Below are positions 8,433 through 30,659 of a stretch of 64,000 bases of DNA, in pieces; positions within the stretch are counted from its first letter, which is position 1, and every line of letters begins with the position of its first letter. The position numbers and the translations under genes were made by a program. The stretch spans positions 1,392,001 to 1,456,000 of the forward strand of contig NZ_AP018795.1 in the NCBI RefSeq assembly GCF_003966655.1, in the 5' to 3' direction. The notes under the pieces are model-generated. The model was not told where the DNA came from, searched no databases, and saw only the letters and a program-made list of their open reading frames with translations. Source of the DNA: Acidithiobacillus ferridurans (lineage in GTDB: Bacteria; Pseudomonadota; Gammaproteobacteria; Acidithiobacillales; Acidithiobacillaceae).

Positions 8433-10987
8433 ATGGCACACCAGCTCGTTATCGTAGAATCACCGGCAAAAGCCAAGACCATCCAGAAATATCTGGGGGA
8501 TGATTTTCAGGTGCTTGCGTCCTACGGCCACGTCCGTGATCTGCAGCCCAAAGAGGGCGCTGTGGACACGGAGCGTGATTTCGCCATGCGCTATACCGCC
8601 ATCGAGCGCAACGAGCGCCATGTGGATGCCATTGCCAAGGCCCTGCGCGGAGCCGATAAACTTTGGCTCGCCACCGATCCGGATCGCGAAGGCGAGGCCA
8701 TCTCCTGGCACCTGGTGGAGCTCTTGCGCGAACGCCACCTGCTCGGTGACAAGCCGACGCAACGCGTGGTCTTTCATGAAATTACCAAAAAAGCCGTGCA
8801 GGAGGCCATTGCCCATCCCCGCGAAATCGCCATGGATCTGGTCAACGCCCAGCAGGCGCGCCGTGCCCTCGATTATCTGGTAGGCTTCAACCTGTCACCG
8901 CTGCTCTGGCGCAAGGTGCGTCCGGGGCTCTCCGCGGGACGGGTACAAAGCGCCGCCCTGCGCCTGATCTGTGAGCGCGAAAACGAGATCGAGGCCTTCG
9001 TCAGCCGCGAATACTGGACCATCGCCAGCCGCCTGCAACACGCGGGCAGCACGTTCACCGCCCGCCTGACCCATTGGCAGAATAAAAAGCTCGAACAGTT
9101 CGACATCGCCGACGGTGACCAGGCCCAGGCCATTCGTAGCGGCATGGAAGACGACCTCGGTCACCAGGCACTGCGGGTCCGGGAAGTGGAGCGCAAAAGC
9201 CGGCAACGCCAGCCGGCCGCGCCCTTCACCACCTCCACCCTGCAGCAGGAAGCGTCGCGCAAGCTTGGCTTCAACGCCAGCCGGACCATGCGCGTTGCCC
9301 AACAGCTTTATGAGGGCATCAATATCGGCAACGAGACCGTGGGCCTCATCAGCTATATGCGTACCGATGCCGTCAATCTTGCCGAAGAGGCCATTGCCTC
9401 GATCCGTACTTTTATCGATGGCTACTACGGCAGCGAATTCGTCCCCGAGACGCCGCGCCGCTACAAGACCAAAACCAAGAACGCCCAGGAAGCGCACGAA
9501 GCCATCCGTCCTACGGACATCGCGCGCACCCCGGAATCCCTCCAGGGGGTGCTGGAACGCGATCTCTGGCGCCTGTACGAGCTGGTCTGGAAGCGCAGCA
9601 TCGCCTGCCAGATGGCGCCCGCGCGCCTCGACCTCGTCGCCGTGGATATGGATGCCGGGACACACTGGACCCTGCGCGCCAACGGCTCCATGGTGACCTT
9701 CCCCGGCTTCATGGCCGTCTATCAGGAAGGTAAGGACGACGGCGACGAGGATGAGAACAACCGCATCCTGCCGCCCCTCGATGTCGGCGATGAACCCCAG
9801 GTACTCGGCGTCGATCCCGAACAGCACTTTACCGAGCCCCCCCTCGTTACAGCGATGCCACCCTGGTCAAAACCCTGGAAGCCCACGGCATCGGCCGGCC
9901 ATCCACCTACGCCAGCATCATTCAGACTCTGCAGAACCGCGAATACGTCGCCGTCGAGCAGCGCCGATTCCATCCCACCGACCTCGGCCGGGTAGTCGGC
10001 CGGTTCCTGACCAACCACTTTGAACGATATGTGGACTACGGCTTCACCGCCAGCATGGAAGATGAACTGGACGCCGTCTCCCGCGGCGAAAAGCAATGGC
10101 AACCCGTCCTCAGCGCGTTCTGGAGCCCCTTCCGCGCGCTGCTCGACGAAAAAGCCAACGTCAGCCGCGCCGAAGCGACCAGCGAGGCGCTGGAGGAAGC
10201 CTGCCCGCAATGTGGCAAGCCCTTATTCCTGCGCCTCGGACGCCATGGGCGTTTCGTGGCCTGTTCCGGTTATCCCGAATGCAACTATACCCGTCCGGTA
10301 GACGGGCCGCGCGAACCAGCCGAACCCGTAGGCCGCGATTGCCCCGATTGTGGCAAGCCGTTGGTGTACAAAACCGGGCGTTATGGCCGTTTCATCTCCT
10401 GCAGCGGCTATCCGGAGTGTAAACATATCGAACCACTGACCCAGCCCAAGTCATCGGGCGTCACCTGCCCTCAGTGCGGTGAGGGCGAACTGGTCGAAAA
10501 ACGCAGCCGCTACGGCAAGGTTTTTTATTCCTGCAATACCTACCCCAAATGCACTTACGCCGTCTGGGGACCACCGGTGGCGCGGCCTTGTCCGCGTTGC
10601 GGCTGGCCCATCATGATCGAGAAAAGCGGCAAGCGCCTCGGTGAACAACTCGCCTGCCCGCAGAGCGAATGTGCTTTCCACTTCCCGGTGAACGCCAGCG
10701 ACGCGGAAATCGCCGCCATGCTGCCCGACTACACCCCGCCGCCGCCCCGCGAAAAGCGCGCACCCCCGGCCAAGAGGGCCGCGCGCGCCCGCAAAACGAC
10801 AGCGAAAACGGCCAAAAAACCGGCCACGGAAGCCACGGCGGCTGCCGCCAAAAAACCGGCGAAAGCCAAAACGACGACCGCCGCGGCAAAAAAGCCCGCA
10901 GCTTCCAAACGCAAGGCCCCGTCAGCCGGCGAAGGCAAGACGCCCCCATCCCGTAAACGCGCCGCGAAAAGTGTTAGCGATTCATGA
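8433..10987 (+). CDS. topA: DNA topoisomerase I, with an apparent -1 frameshift at 9837-9843
   Basis: Frame 1 runs from 8433 and encodes the TOPRIM domain ([31 protein letters not shown]), the catalytic Tyr in SYMRTDAVN, and most of the gate. At a run of seven C (9837-9843) the frame is lost; the first frame then stops at 9995. The -1 frame continues with [15 protein letters not shown] and [12 protein letters not shown], the expected next motifs, to 10987. One extra C restores an 852-codon gene (851 aa). The tail carries four Cys4 zinc ribbons and an Ala/Lys-rich basic end (about 760-850). topA is normally essential, so a sequencing error in the homopolymer or a very recent lesion is likely. 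The stop overlaps the ferredoxin start (ATGA). Confidence 0.93.
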
Positions 10988-11310
10988 CCTACGTCGTTAC
11001 CGAAAACTGTATCCAGTGTAAATATACCGATTGCGCGGAGGTCTGCCCGGTGGAGTGCTTCCACGAAGGGCCGAATTTCCTCGTCATTGATCCCGTGGAG
11101 TGTATAGACTGTGCTGCCTGCGTGCCCGAGTGCCCGGCCGACGCGATCTTCGCAGACGACGAGGTGCCGGCCGATCAGCGGGACTTTACCGCCATCAATG
11201 CGGAGCTTGCCCGAGACTGGCCCGTCATTCTCCGTAAAAAAGCCGCTTTGCCGGATGCGGAAACCTGGAATGGCAAGGGCGGCAAGCGCCCTTTGCTGCG
11301 ACGCTCATGA
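10984..11310 (+). CDS. fdxA: 7Fe ([3Fe-4S][4Fe-4S]) ferredoxin FdxA
   Basis: 108 aa. The first cluster region is [18 protein letters not shown] and the second [17 protein letters not shown], the FdxA pattern with one 3Fe and one 4Fe cluster. The C-terminal ~50 residues ([15 protein letters not shown], then WPVI) are the extension typical of FdxA from proteobacteria. It is a soluble low-potential electron carrier; the partner is unknown. The start codon overlaps the topA stop as ATGA, an unusual coupling of an Fe-S protein to a topoisomerase. The stop lies 15 bp before the parS site ahead of minC. Confidence 0.93.
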
Positions 11311-27017: not shown

Positions 27018-30000
27018 CTATGAACCTTCGTTTCCCCCGCTCATGACATGATCCAGCCACTGGCTGGAAATCCTTTCCAGCAGGCGATTCTGACTCTGGC
27101 GGGCGGTGAGGTTGTCCAGATCCACCCAGGCCAGGGGCTGATCCTGCTGGGCGCAGGAAAATACCGCCTTGGTGCGCTGTCCCGTTTCCGGATCGATCTG
27201 CCATTGCAGACACTGGGCGCAGACGCCTTTGAGCATGCACTGCATGGGACTGCCCACCGTCGCCGTAGCCTCCAGATCGGCCCGGAAATAGGGCTGTAGC
27301 TCCCCCTGGAGGGCCTGCTGAAAGGCCTTGAGCAGGCCGGTGGAGCCCATGACCATCAGGCGATCCACGCTGTTCAGGGCGATCTCCGTCGCATAGGCCT
27401 TTTGCCCCGGCAACTCCCCGGCCCCATAGGCGCGCAGCAAGGCCACCATGTCACTGGCCTCGACACTGAGGTCCTGCTGGCGGTGGGCTTCGATCAACGG
27501 GCCGCTGCCCGTACACCAGATGATCTGATCTGCGGCTTCTTCCAGCTCCGCCTGGTTATCCAGTTCGCTGGCTTTGCCCAACGCCGCCACATAGAGCACG
27601 CGGTTGCCCGCCGCCCGCAAGGCCGGGCCGATATCCAGCATCACCGCCGCACCCCAGCGTCCGGCGACCACCAGAATCGTTTTACCCGTGGGGATGTCGG
27701 TGGGTGCGCCGGTCGGTCCCATGAGAATCAGGGGATCACCCGGCTGTAAACGTCCCACCAGACGCGGTCCGGTGCCCCACTGCAGGATCAGGAGGCGCAC
27801 CGCGTCGCCTTCCACCCCCGCGCCGCTGACCGTCAGCACCGGTATCTGTAAGCGGGTGCCGTCCACGATCGGGCTGTGACTCTCATAGGTCTGCAAGCGG
27901 AAAAACTGTCCCGGCCGGAAATTGCGAGCCGCCAGCGGGGCTTCCACCCACATCTCGGTGACGGCGGGGTTGCTGCGATCCATGCGCAGTACCCGCATGC
28001 TCAACAGATGCTGCAACCGTTGCTGAAAGCCTTGCACATCCGGATCGACGGTGGTATCCAGTGTCCCCAGGCTCTGCATGACCTGAGGGTAGGTCGCCTT
28101 GGCCGAGGCGATGGCCTTGACCACGCTGCCATGAAACACCGGATGGGTGTCCCCGATAAAGCTGATCCGATGTCCTTGCGCATCACCGTAGGAAGTAAAG
28201 GGACCGGCCTCGGGGGCCTTGCAGTGCTCGGCCACCTGCACCGCTTGCAACGGCCCGTTGTCGTGGGCCACATGGGTCAGGAAGTGATCCCCATCCAGTT
28301 GGAAAGTCCCCGGATATTCCCTTTCATAGATGGTGTTGGGGACGGTGCCGGCGGCAATGAAGACGGCTCGCGCGGGAAGCCGCACCTCCTGATCGCTGGC
28401 CAGCCAGCGCCCTTCCACCTCGCGCATCCGGCGGAAGACCATGTGCGCGATATGTCCATAGCTATCCAGTTCTGCCCGGAGAGGATCGAGACCCTCACCA
28501 TAATAGATCCCTTCTTCCATGGCCTTGATAAGTTCTTCATGGTTGCGGGTATAGGCGGGTGCCTGCTGCATCCCCTTCCGGTATGCCAGGGTGACGCCGC
28601 CCCAGGACTGGATCAGCGGCACGAAATTGGGCGATTCGTTCTCTGCTGCGGCGCGCTCGCGCTCGGCACGCACGGCGCGCCCGTGGGTCAGGAACTCGTC
28701 GAGAATCCCGGCATCCTCGGCGGAGAGTCCGGCGCGAAGTTTTTCTTCTCCGGAATGCGTCACCATCGCTTCGTAGCGCGCCAGCACCTTCTCTACCTGC
28801 CGCACATAATAGGCCTGTACCTCGGTGGCGGTATCCACCGCCGTGAGGCCACCGCCAATCACCACCGCCGGCAGGCGCACCTGCAGATTGGCGAGACTGG
28901 ACCGCTTGCCCGCTCCGGTGAGCTGCAGGGCCATGAGGAAGTCGCTGGCCTGCCGCATACCCCGCGCCAGACTCTCGCCCATGGGCACCACCCGCGGCAG
29001 CCCCGCGCCGGTAGCGATGCAGACATGATCAAAACCCAGTTCCCAGGCGTTTTCGAGGGTGATGGTACCGCCCAGCCGCACGCCGCCGAAAATCTGGAAA
29101 TTCGAGCGCCGTGCCAGGGTCAGGTAGATCAGCTTGAGAAAATTCTTGTCCCAGCGCACGGTAATGCCATATTCGGCCACGCCGCCAAACCCGAGCAGAA
29201 TGCGTTCGTCGAGGTCCTCCTGGAGACGGCTCCAGTCGCGGATGGGCTGCTCCAACCACTGCCGGGGCAGGGGTTCGACTTTCAGACCATCGATACCGAC
29301 CACCGCACAGCCTTCCTGCAGGAGATGATGGGCCATGGTGAAGCCTGCCGGGCCCATGCCCGCCACCAGTACCTTGCGCCCGTTGTAGGGCTGCGCCAGA
29401 TATTGCACGGCGCGCAATGGGTTCCAGCGGGTCAGCAGATCGTAGAGCTCCACTCCCCAGGGAAGATTCAGCACATCCGTGAGGATCCGCGTTTCAATCT
29501 GCGGGATGTTCACCGGATCCTGCTTCTGGTAGACGCAGGCCTTCATACAGTCATTGCAGATGCGGTGTCCCGTGGCGGGAACCATGGGATTGTCCACCAT
29601 CGCCATGGCCAGGGCGGCGATATGGAATCCGTCCCGCTTCAGCACCTGCATCTCGGAGATTTTTTCTTCCAGGGGACAGCCCGTCAGGGTGACGCCCAAG
29701 GGGTCCACCTTGAGACCTAGTTCGGGCACGCCCTTTTTCTCCGGAAAGCCCTTGGAACAAAAATCACCTTCGTGATCATGGCAGTATAAACAATAATGGA
29801 CTTCATTTTGGACGCTGCGGGCGTCCATGCGCAGGTCGGTCAGATGAAAGCTGTCGCGGCGCCGCAGGGTGCCGTCCGGGGCCACGAAGGGCGCACCGGG
29901 AAGATCCTCCCGGCGTTTCAAGGGTACCAGTGCCTCGTGGTCCACTCGTTGGGGCAGGCGGAAACTGGACCAGCCCCGCACCGCCAGGGCGGCCTGCGGA

Positions 30001-30515
30001 TCACTCAGGATGCGGGCACACCACCGGGTCAGACGGTCGATGGCCGCGGCATGAGCCGCTTCATCCCCGAGCCATGCTTCACCCAGGCGGGCGATGGCCC
30101 ATTCGCGATCTTCCAGCGGCCAGCCGCGCTGCTGGATTTCGCTGTCCAGCCACTGATCCAGATCGGCAAAGGATTCCGGGAATTCACCCCGGTAACGGCG
30201 CGCGCGGCGCAACACGAAATGCTTTTTGAACTCCATGACGACATCATGGCTGCGGGTCCGGGCCTGCAACACCGCCACTTCCGGCTCCAGGTGGAAGAGT
30301 TGCGCGACAAATAATTCCAGGTGCGGCGCAAGCCGCAGCAAAAACTCGCTCTGGGCTTTATCCGCAGGCTGCGCTCCGGCGGCACGATATACCCGCAGGC
30401 CTTCCACCAGGGTCTGGTCTTTTTCCGCCAGGACACGAAGAAATTTCCCATCCAGCCGCGCGAGCCCTTCAGAAGTAAAAAGTTCTTTATATTCGAAGTT
30501 TAGTAAATTAAGCAC
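27018..30515 (-). CDS. Fused GltD-like/PyrK-like FAD, Fe-S oxidoreductase (about 1165 aa)
   Basis: 1165 aa from a GTG at 30515 with GGGAG six bases upstream; an ATG at 30533 (1171 aa) has no good ribosome-binding site. Residues 1-240 are helical and unassigned. Cysteines at about 248-258 (YCLYCHDHEGDFC), then GCPLEEKISEM and CNDCMKAC at about 326-333, match the Fe-S binding start of glutamate-synthase beta subunits. A dinucleotide site (KVLVAGMGPAGF, ~387) and a second Rossmann site (VVIGGGLTAVDTA, ~557) complete a GltD-like oxidoreductase. From about 860 an FNR/PyrK domain follows (FRPGQFF) ending in a PyrK-like CxxxxCxxC cluster (~1112). Likely an NAD(P)H-linked electron splitter or carrier; substrate unknown. 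Confidence 0.85.
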   Translation of the reverse strand: MLNLLNFEYKELFTSEGLARLDGKFLRVLAEKDQTLVEGLRVYRAAGAQPADKAQSEFLLRLAPHLELFVAQLFHLEPEVAVLQARTRSHDVVMEFKKHFVLRRARRYRGEFPESFADLDQWLDSEIQQRGWPLEDREWAIARLGEAWLGDEAAHAAAIDRLTRWCARILSDPQAALAVRGWSSFRLPQRVDHEALVPLKRREDLPGAPFVAPDGTLRRRDSFHLTDLRMDARSVQNEVHYCLYCHDHEGDFCSKGFPEKKGVPELGLKVDPLGVTLTGCPLEEKISEMQVLKRDGFHIAALAMAMVDNPMVPATGHRICNDCMKACVYQKQDPVNIPQIETRILTDVLNLPWGVELYDLLTRWNPLRAVQYLAQPYNGRKVLVAGMGPAGFTMAHHLLQEGCAVVGIDGLKVEPLPRQWLEQPIRDWSRLQEDLDERILLGFGGVAEYGITVRWDKNFLKLIYLTLARRSNFQIFGGVRLGGTITLENAWELGFDHVCIATGAGLPRVVPMGESLARGMRQASDFLMALQLTGAGKRSSLANLQVRLPAVVIGGGLTAVDTATEVQAYYVRQVEKVLARYEAMVTHSGEEKLRAGLSAEDAGILDEFLTHGRAVRAERERAAAENESPNFVPLIQSWGGVTLAYRKGMQQAPAYTRNHEELIKAMEEGIYYGEGLDPLRAELDSYGHIAHMVFRRMREVEGRWLASDQEVRLPARAVFIAAGTVPNTIYEREYPGTFQLDGDHFLTHVAHDNGPLQAVQVAEHCKAPEAGPFTSYGDAQGHRISFIGDTHPVFHGSVVKAIASAKATYPQVMQSLGTLDTTVDPDVQGFQQRLQHLLSMRVLRMDRSNPAVTEMWVEAPLAARNFRPGQFFRLQTYESHSPIVDGTRLQIPVLTVSGAGVEGDAVRLLILQWGTGPRLVGRLQPGDPLILMGPTGAPTDIPTGKTILVVAGRWGAAVMLDIGPALRAAGNRVLYVAALGKASELDNQAELEEAADQIIWCTGSGPLIEAHRQQDLSVEASDMVALLRAYGAGELPGQKAYATEIALNSVDRLMVMGSTGLLKAFQQALQGELQPYFRADLEATATVGSPMQCMLKGVCAQCLQWQIDPETGQRTKAVFSCAQQDQPLAWVDLDNLTARQSQNRLLERISSQWLDHVMSGGNEGS

Positions 30516-30659
30516 TATAATCTCCCGAGTCATACCAGCGACTGCGCTGCGACAGTATTCATGAAACGGTCATATTCTGCTGGCAATATGGGATTCTGTC
30601 ATCTTTTCAGGATGGCCGCATGGAAATATCATCCGCTGGCCCATATCCCTGCGCTTTGG

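Follow-up and report, generated by a model that had tools for sequence, protein, structure and literature searches.

A 64,000-nucleotide stretch of the genome of the sulfur-oxidizing bacterium Acidithiobacillus ferridurans (contig NZ_AP018795.1, positions 1,392,001 to 1,456,000), referred to here as the window, contains a gene for a single-chain oxidoreductase in which a part resembling GltD and NfnL is fused to a part resembling PyrK and NfnS. The gene lies at 27018..30533 on the minus strand and consists of a single uninterrupted open reading frame (ORF), which starts with ATG and encodes 1171 amino acids followed by a stop codon. According to the window annotation, dnaN, recF, gyrB, and a GGDEF/EAL gene are located upstream of it, and genes resembling pilB/gspE and gspF downstream, all on the same strand. 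A gene for an FdxA-family ferredoxin, which is proposed as the electron partner of the fused protein, is present at 10984..11307 on the plus strand (157.7 bits with NF045490, over the cut-off of 135). The genome consists of one contig of 2.92 Mb, and the rows nearest to the window copy in the tree were Acidithiobacillus records. A plasmid origin of this copy was rejected, as it sits on that single contig beside dnaN-recF-gyrB, and a phage origin was likewise rejected, as no PHROGs family matched. Among 72,556 plasmid records, one carried the fused gene at a coverage of at least 80%.

The first-pass annotation of this DNA had described one polypeptide that joins a helical N-terminal domain, an Fe-S segment, a GltD-like core, and a PyrK-like module. 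This description was borne out, both for the fusion itself, on which ORF, family profiles, and structure model agree, and for the order of the parts, which was recovered in the AlphaFold2 model and the fold matches. In the model, the N-terminal helical domain covers residues 1-240 (29814..30533; this and all other features of the gene are on the minus strand). The Fe-S segment at residues 241-350 (29484..29813) was delimited by spacing, by a profile alignment to 5jca_L, and by a 48-row alignment of the window protein with 47 of 80 named loci, from which partial and near-duplicate rows were removed by hand before counting. The FAD- and NADP-binding core, which matches 5jfc_L, spans residues 384-830 (28044..29384) and includes a helical insertion in its NADP-binding Rossmann fold, seen in both alignment and model at residues 577-644 (28602..28805). 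The length of this insertion ranged from 64 to 77 amino acids across the 48 rows, and the model places helices at residues 563-594 and 605-630. The FNR module resembling PyrK and NfnS, with matches to 4yry_C and 5jca_S, occupies residues 840-1166 (27036..28016).

Searches with family models pointed to the same parts, mostly at low scores. In Pfam, Pyr_redox_2 matched residues 387-590, and Fer4_20 matched residues 284-350 below its cut-off (21.5 versus 25.8 bits). GltD-type NCBIfam models fell on the middle of the protein and PyrK-type models (NF004862 and versions of PRK00054) on residues ~845-1013, all of them below cut-off. The GltD model TIGR01317 gave 44.8 bits against a cut-off of 447.7, the PRK00054 versions 16-21.5 against 219-314, and NF004862 61.8 against 220, which places the protein outside the families that these models define. 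The best NCBIfam model was NF005128/PRK06567, which has a model length of 1031 and is named as a putative bifunctional GltD/2-polyprenylphenol hydroxylase, a name only. Its match included the N-terminal domain and reached 643.2 bits, under the cut-off of 1072. In tests of 8 other family members it was each time the sole model with an E-value below 1e-60, and in 9 of 9 members it scored below the cut-off (573-820 bits). As it matches all tested members and none of them over the cut-off, the model seems to have been built for a narrower branch. Homologs with an ordinary, known function, which at first pass had been named as evidence that would speak against a new kind of enzyme, did not emerge, the nearest model carrying a putative name alone. 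Among the papers listed by searches of the open-licence PMC literature, none was plainly about this family of fused oxidoreductases.

Structural comparisons linked both halves of the protein to Nfn. A profile of 48 relatives matched, in the PDB, NfnL and NfnS of Pyrococcus furiosus and Thermotoga, PyrK, and the small chain of glutamate synthase. Structure prediction had been suggested as a check, and the AlphaFold2 model of the whole chain (predicted local distance difference test [pLDDT] 89.2; predicted template modelling score [pTM] 0.90) fits the folds of NfnL and NfnS. For residues 193-824, the top VIA match was P. furiosus NfnL (5jfc_L; Z 25.4, 442 residues aligned, 2.4 Å), followed by glutamate synthase chains (Z 24.3-23.5). 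Residues 840-1163 matched Thermotoga maritima NfnA (4yry_C; Z 14.0, 260 residues aligned, 2.5 Å) in VIA, and Foldseek aligned the module to 5jca_S with a TM-score of 0.88 on the target. Nfn chains were therefore best or among the best matches of both halves in the two programs. The N-terminal domain, when modelled alone (residues 9-242), was likewise helical (pLDDT 88.6, pTM 0.73). It had no PDB match by Foldseek (best E-value 4.1), and its best Z-score in VIA was 2.8 among 45 chains, a lack of matches that does not show the fold to be novel. Neither this domain nor the insertion in the NADP-binding fold is covered by the sequence matches to Nfn chains.

The residues expected to hold cofactors were strongly conserved. 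Ten of the 11 cysteines in the two Fe-S regions were invariant (48/48), and C259 was present in 47 of the 48 rows. In the N-terminal of these regions, C248, C251, C286, C326, C329, and C333, together with E347, were present in 48/48 rows, and these residues and C259 are taken, from their alignment with NfnL, as putative ligands of two [4Fe-4S] clusters. The assignment of individual residues to each cluster follows the pattern of Nfn and DPD, which we assume to apply here. In the NADP-binding fold, YR[KR] was found at residues 651-653 in 48/48 rows, presumably at the position where Nfn-type enzymes hold the 2'-phosphate of NADP. R460 (29154..29156), conserved in 48/48 rows, aligns with the arginine of GIPEFRLPK in P. 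furiosus NfnL and is taken as the probable flavin-N5 arginine, the counterpart of Arg187 in T. maritima NfnB, for which this role in Nfn has been described (PMC6405883). In the PyrK-like module, alignment and spacing place a [2Fe-2S] site at C1099-x5-C1105-x2-C1108-x18-C1127 (27153..27239). Loss of this cluster in relatives had been considered a possible objection to a PyrK-type module; all four cysteines were retained in 48/48 rows, in the motif C-x5-C-x2-C-x17/18-C. The NAD loop of the same module, which reads AGRWGAA in the window protein (27645..27665, located by alignment), was more variable: 19 rows had the xGxxGAA type of the window protein, 17 had GGGLGN, and 12 had neither. In the homolog from genome G396, much of the NAD-loop lobe was absent and the four [2Fe-2S] cysteines were kept.

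The resemblance to Nfn thus covers both subunit folds, the two sets of [4Fe-4S] ligands, the N5 arginine, and the NADP-type Rossmann motif. In contrast to Nfn, the window protein is one chain with the order L-S, and it adds the helical N-terminal domain of ~240 amino acids and the NADP-fold insertion of ~68 amino acids. Its second Fe-S motif, C-x2-C-x3-C, is longer in Nfn, its NAD loop is altered, and its [2Fe-2S] site has four cysteines, whereas that of Nfn has one aspartate and three cysteines (DGTGMCGxCRx10CV; PMC6405883). The statement at first pass that such parts are normally found in separate subunits has to be corrected, since fused homologs of Nfn have already been published (PMC6405883; AadN, PMC9973337). 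One of these, “pattern C,” carries its PyrK-type part at the C-terminus, is given as uncharacterized in Liang 2019 (PMC6405883), and was reported there from Actinobacteria, Alphaproteobacteria, and Gammaproteobacteria. Pattern C shares with the window protein the single chain and the C-terminal PyrK-type part, both of which are visible in our AlphaFold2 model and fold matches. It is described as ~200 amino acids longer than the clostridial fused type (2,274-bp gene; PMC6405883), which sums to ~950 amino acids, against 1171 for the window protein. AadN is a pattern-B fused Nfn with a genetic role in Rhodopseudomonas palustris, where it was proposed to supply benzoyl-CoA reductase (PMC9973337). 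For both of its parts, an identity of at least 51% to P. furiosus NfnI was reported (PMC9973337); the window protein is far more distant.

Homologs of the fused gene were detected well beyond Acidithiobacillus. In a close sample, 37 of 57 genomes (own genome included) had a match at an E-value of at most 0.001, one of which was weak and partial (G049), while two genomes had only fragments at contig ends (G002, G006). In a phylum sample, 17 of 398 genomes, own genome included, had a match at an E-value of at most 1e-30. From 559 confirmed stretches, 80 named loci were kept. Among the matches listed, the named hosts included Acidithiobacillus, Ectothiorhodospiraceae, Methylococcales (with one locus in Methylococcus capsulatus Texas), Myxococcus, Corallococcus, Pyrinomonas, and metagenome-assembled genomes labelled Nitrospirota and Planctomycetota. 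Records with fused homologs carried the labels Acidobacteriota, Myxococcota, Nitrospirota, and Planctomycetota. As collinear homologs are this widespread, the fusion is more than chance. Most genomes in the samples searched had one such gene, and we take most of the named hosts to be aerobes. Two homologs contained one in-frame stop, TAG in L014 (G003) and TAA in L035 (G043), which may reflect sequencing error or decay.

In some genomes, the fused gene was found in an operon with a ferredoxin gene. On the A. caldus plasmid pTcM1, it is preceded, in this order, by genes for a GntR regulator, a PRK08275 flavoprotein (1045 bits, over the cut-off of 587), a 4Fe-4S protein, a HEAT protein, and FdxA, and the operon adjoins OprD and ABC-transporter genes. 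A 2025 paper predicted that two operons on plasmids of this kind function in taking up and assimilating organosulfonates, and its drawing shows a ferredoxin/APS reductase/GntR module and a sulfonate transporter (PMC12375680). The genes drawn there are taken to be the same as those of the pTcM1 operon. The arrangement GntR, PRK08275 flavoprotein, (4Fe-4S), HEAT, FdxA, fused oxidoreductase was located in Acidithiobacillaceae and in G029 (L034:6361-16844, L141:2331-14903, L142, L143, L144, L179, and L183). Its flavoprotein was detected at an E-value of at most 1e-100 in 8 of the 57 close-sample genomes, and GntR, flavoprotein, and HEAT genes were present in every operon inspected, that is, in 7 of these 8 genomes (not G006) and on the plasmid. 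The small 4Fe-4S protein gene was present in 6 of the 8 operons inspected, and fdxA wherever the contig extends far enough to include it (pTcM1, L059 [which is the G007 contig], G002, G012, G013, G017, and G029). In 6 of the 8 genomes, the contig with the flavoprotein gene also carries the fused gene, or a contig-end stretch of it, farther downstream, the stretch in G006 being short (42 residues, E-value 2e-5); the contigs of G002 and G008 stop short of this position. The run in G029 reaches from GntR as far as OprD; its transporter genes separate fdxA from the fused gene, a 4Fe-4S gene was not called, and a second copy of the fused gene is located on another contig. The operon loci also carry genes for a substrate-binding protein, ABC permease/ATPase, and OprD, and the placement of the transporter genes varies.

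Three genomes (G012, G013, and G017; L007, L013, and L019 with L148-L159) have assemblies that are split within the fused gene, consistent with two copies per genome that share a single core contig and have different flanks. The middle of the gene (residues ~60-1152, 62-1152, and 41-1162, respectively) makes up a whole contig of 3284, 3279, and 3363 bp, and each end of this contig shares an overlap of exactly 198, 124, and 88 bases, respectively, with two different contigs. The upstream flanks carry either gyrB, as expected for the chromosomal copy, or the FdxA-HEAT-flavoprotein genes of the operon copy. Downstream, one set carries pilB (G012) or genes that in the window lie close to the origin (G013, G017), and the other carries a substrate-binding protein and ABC genes. 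The pattern looks as if assembly had collapsed two copies whose cores are nearly identical, and gene conversion or recent copying between the chromosomal and operon copies is a likely cause of their near identity. Such cores would imply that the same enzyme serves both loci, with differences in its ends or in expression.

Because the fused gene is sometimes found near a ferredoxin gene, this context suggests that the protein passes electrons to FdxA. Among 25 gene-bearing genomes from 15 families, an FdxA gene over cut-off was located within 4 kb of the fused gene in G004 (2.2 kb), G018 (1.9 kb), G029 (second copy, 3.4 kb), G034 (1.0 kb), G056 (1.4 kb), and G396 (~3 kb), which corresponds to 5 of the 15 families when G029 is counted. 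Except for that of G029, these FdxA genes lie outside the operon, as does one within 4 kb in L106. Together with the conserved NADP motif, the FAD fold, and the two [4Fe-4S] sites, this ferredoxin link is why we favor, with slightly better than even confidence, the reading that the fused protein is an NADPH:FdxA oxidoreductase of Nfn ancestry. Its substrates, direction, bound cofactors, and partner are what we infer from a predicted fold and from observed residue conservation and gene context. NADPH would bind the second Rossmann fold of the GltD-like core and reduce the FAD there, and electrons would leave via the two [4Fe-4S] clusters, held by C286/C326/C329/E347 and then by C248/C251/C259/C333, to FdxA. 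A second route may pass through the all-cysteine [2Fe-2S] cluster, reach the FAD in the PyrK-like module, and end at an acceptor that may differ between lineages, with NAD(H) as a candidate in some. The enzyme would then be a general electron supply, of which Acidithiobacillaceae would use a second copy with the same core in the FdxA/flavoprotein operon, alongside sulfonate-type transport genes.

Several observations weigh against FdxA as the partner. In the window itself, the FdxA gene is 15.7 kb away from the fused gene. A rough estimate of the chance of the observed proximity, 4e-8, is post hoc and assumes genome size and FdxA number, and G034, G056, and L106 belong to one clade, so that there are about four independent cases. 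Across all 81 rows, FdxA was found within ~10 kb in 5, although the called genes extended for 4 kb to either side in only 40 of the 81. FdxA was not enriched in genomes with the fused gene (over cut-off in 18 of 25, against 29 of 35 without it), and six gene-bearing genomes of family f64 had weak FdxA relatives only. Given this lack of enrichment, co-occurrence across genomes was dropped as support, and proximity alone was used.

Other neighbors were less consistent. The most frequent cluster of neighbors, from BLAST clusters of mechanically called ORFs, was common to at most 9 of 81 rows, and looks like a set of loosely joined short-chain dehydrogenases. A conserved neighborhood was therefore set aside as a functional guide, as context alone gives little outside the operon. 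An NCBIfam tally of 134 neighbors yielded NadA (4), FdxA (4), Grx4 (2), and GatB (2). This tally is biased, as the script list was trimmed by hand and genes of L145, L146, and L147 were added after fdxA and nadA-like genes had been seen there, additions that supply 2 of the 4 NadA and 2 of the 4 FdxA hits. Genes for NadA (quinolinate synthase) were next to or near the fused gene in L063, L072, L146, and L147, and a Grx4 gene was close upstream in L146 and L106. The NadA and Grx4 neighbors give no more than a hint of a link to Fe-S clusters, on which none of the readings below is built.

The protein could instead be a true flavin-based electron-bifurcating transhydrogenase acting on NADH, NADPH, and ferredoxin, and thus a further fused form of Nfn, which we consider unlikely. 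Such an enzyme would account for the conserved cofactor-ligand positions and N5 arginine and for the fit of both halves to Nfn folds, but not for the replacement of the aspartate ligand of the [2Fe-2S] cluster by cysteine in 48/48 rows. The presumed aerobic lifestyle of most named hosts also argues against it. Bifurcating enzymes are nearly absent from aerobic cells, with the exception of Fix, according to Poudel 2018 (PMC6085437). In addition, the GGGLGN type of NAD loop was found in 17 of 48 rows (xGxxGAA in 19, neither in 12), and the G396 homolog lacks much of the lobe that carries this loop.

Somewhat more doubtful is an NAD(P)H:acceptor reductase for a protein partner other than a ferredoxin, with the N-terminal domain as docking site. 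Such a protein would serve its partner as DsrL, reportedly an NAD(P)H:acceptor oxidoreductase, serves DsrAB, or would act on the operon flavoprotein directly. In favor of it, genes for a flavoprotein, a HEAT protein, and, in 6 of 8 cases inspected, a small 4Fe-4S protein accompany the fused gene in the operon, and the sequence matches to Nfn chains leave out both the N-terminal domain and the insertion. However, no such partner adjoins the window copy (no search was aimed at dsr genes), neighbor clusters recur in at most 9 of 81 rows, and in three genomes the two loci seem to be served by near-identical cores. That the protein is a fused glutamate-synthase-type small subunit or dihydroorotate electron-transfer unit, as the NCBIfam names would have it, is highly improbable, given scores far under the cut-offs of TIGR01317, PRK00054, and NF004862, a separate and better GltD homolog in the same genome, and the absence of gltB and pyrD from the 25 most frequent of 632 neighbor families, in a tally without a search aimed at them. 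The GltD homolog is located outside the window (G000:C1:1889088-1890473), scores 352 bits against the cut-off of 447.7, and has one TAG in the matched stretch.

To our knowledge, it is not well known how aerobes make low-potential reduced ferredoxin. The present family has many hosts that we believe to be aerobic, conserved cofactor ligands, and a ferredoxin neighbor in some lineages. If it is counted as a fused Nfn, G029 and the operon-bearing Acidithiobacillaceae would be exceptions to the statement, in the review of fused Nfn, that fused nfn is not duplicated in sequenced genomes (PMC6405883). More speculatively, and with a low probability in our own estimate, the family could represent a widespread, single-chain, oxygen-tolerant bifurcating enzyme of aerobes, including sulfur oxidizers, methanotrophs, myxobacteria, and Acidobacteriota. 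In such an enzyme, the all-cysteine [2Fe-2S] cluster and the remodelled PyrK module would replace the exergonic branch of Nfn, and low-potential electrons would be driven into FdxA to feed reactions that depend on Fe-S clusters, among them the reductive metabolism of organosulfonates. As there is mostly one gene per genome and the ligands are conserved, the question of low-potential ferredoxin in aerobes could be addressed with one purified protein.

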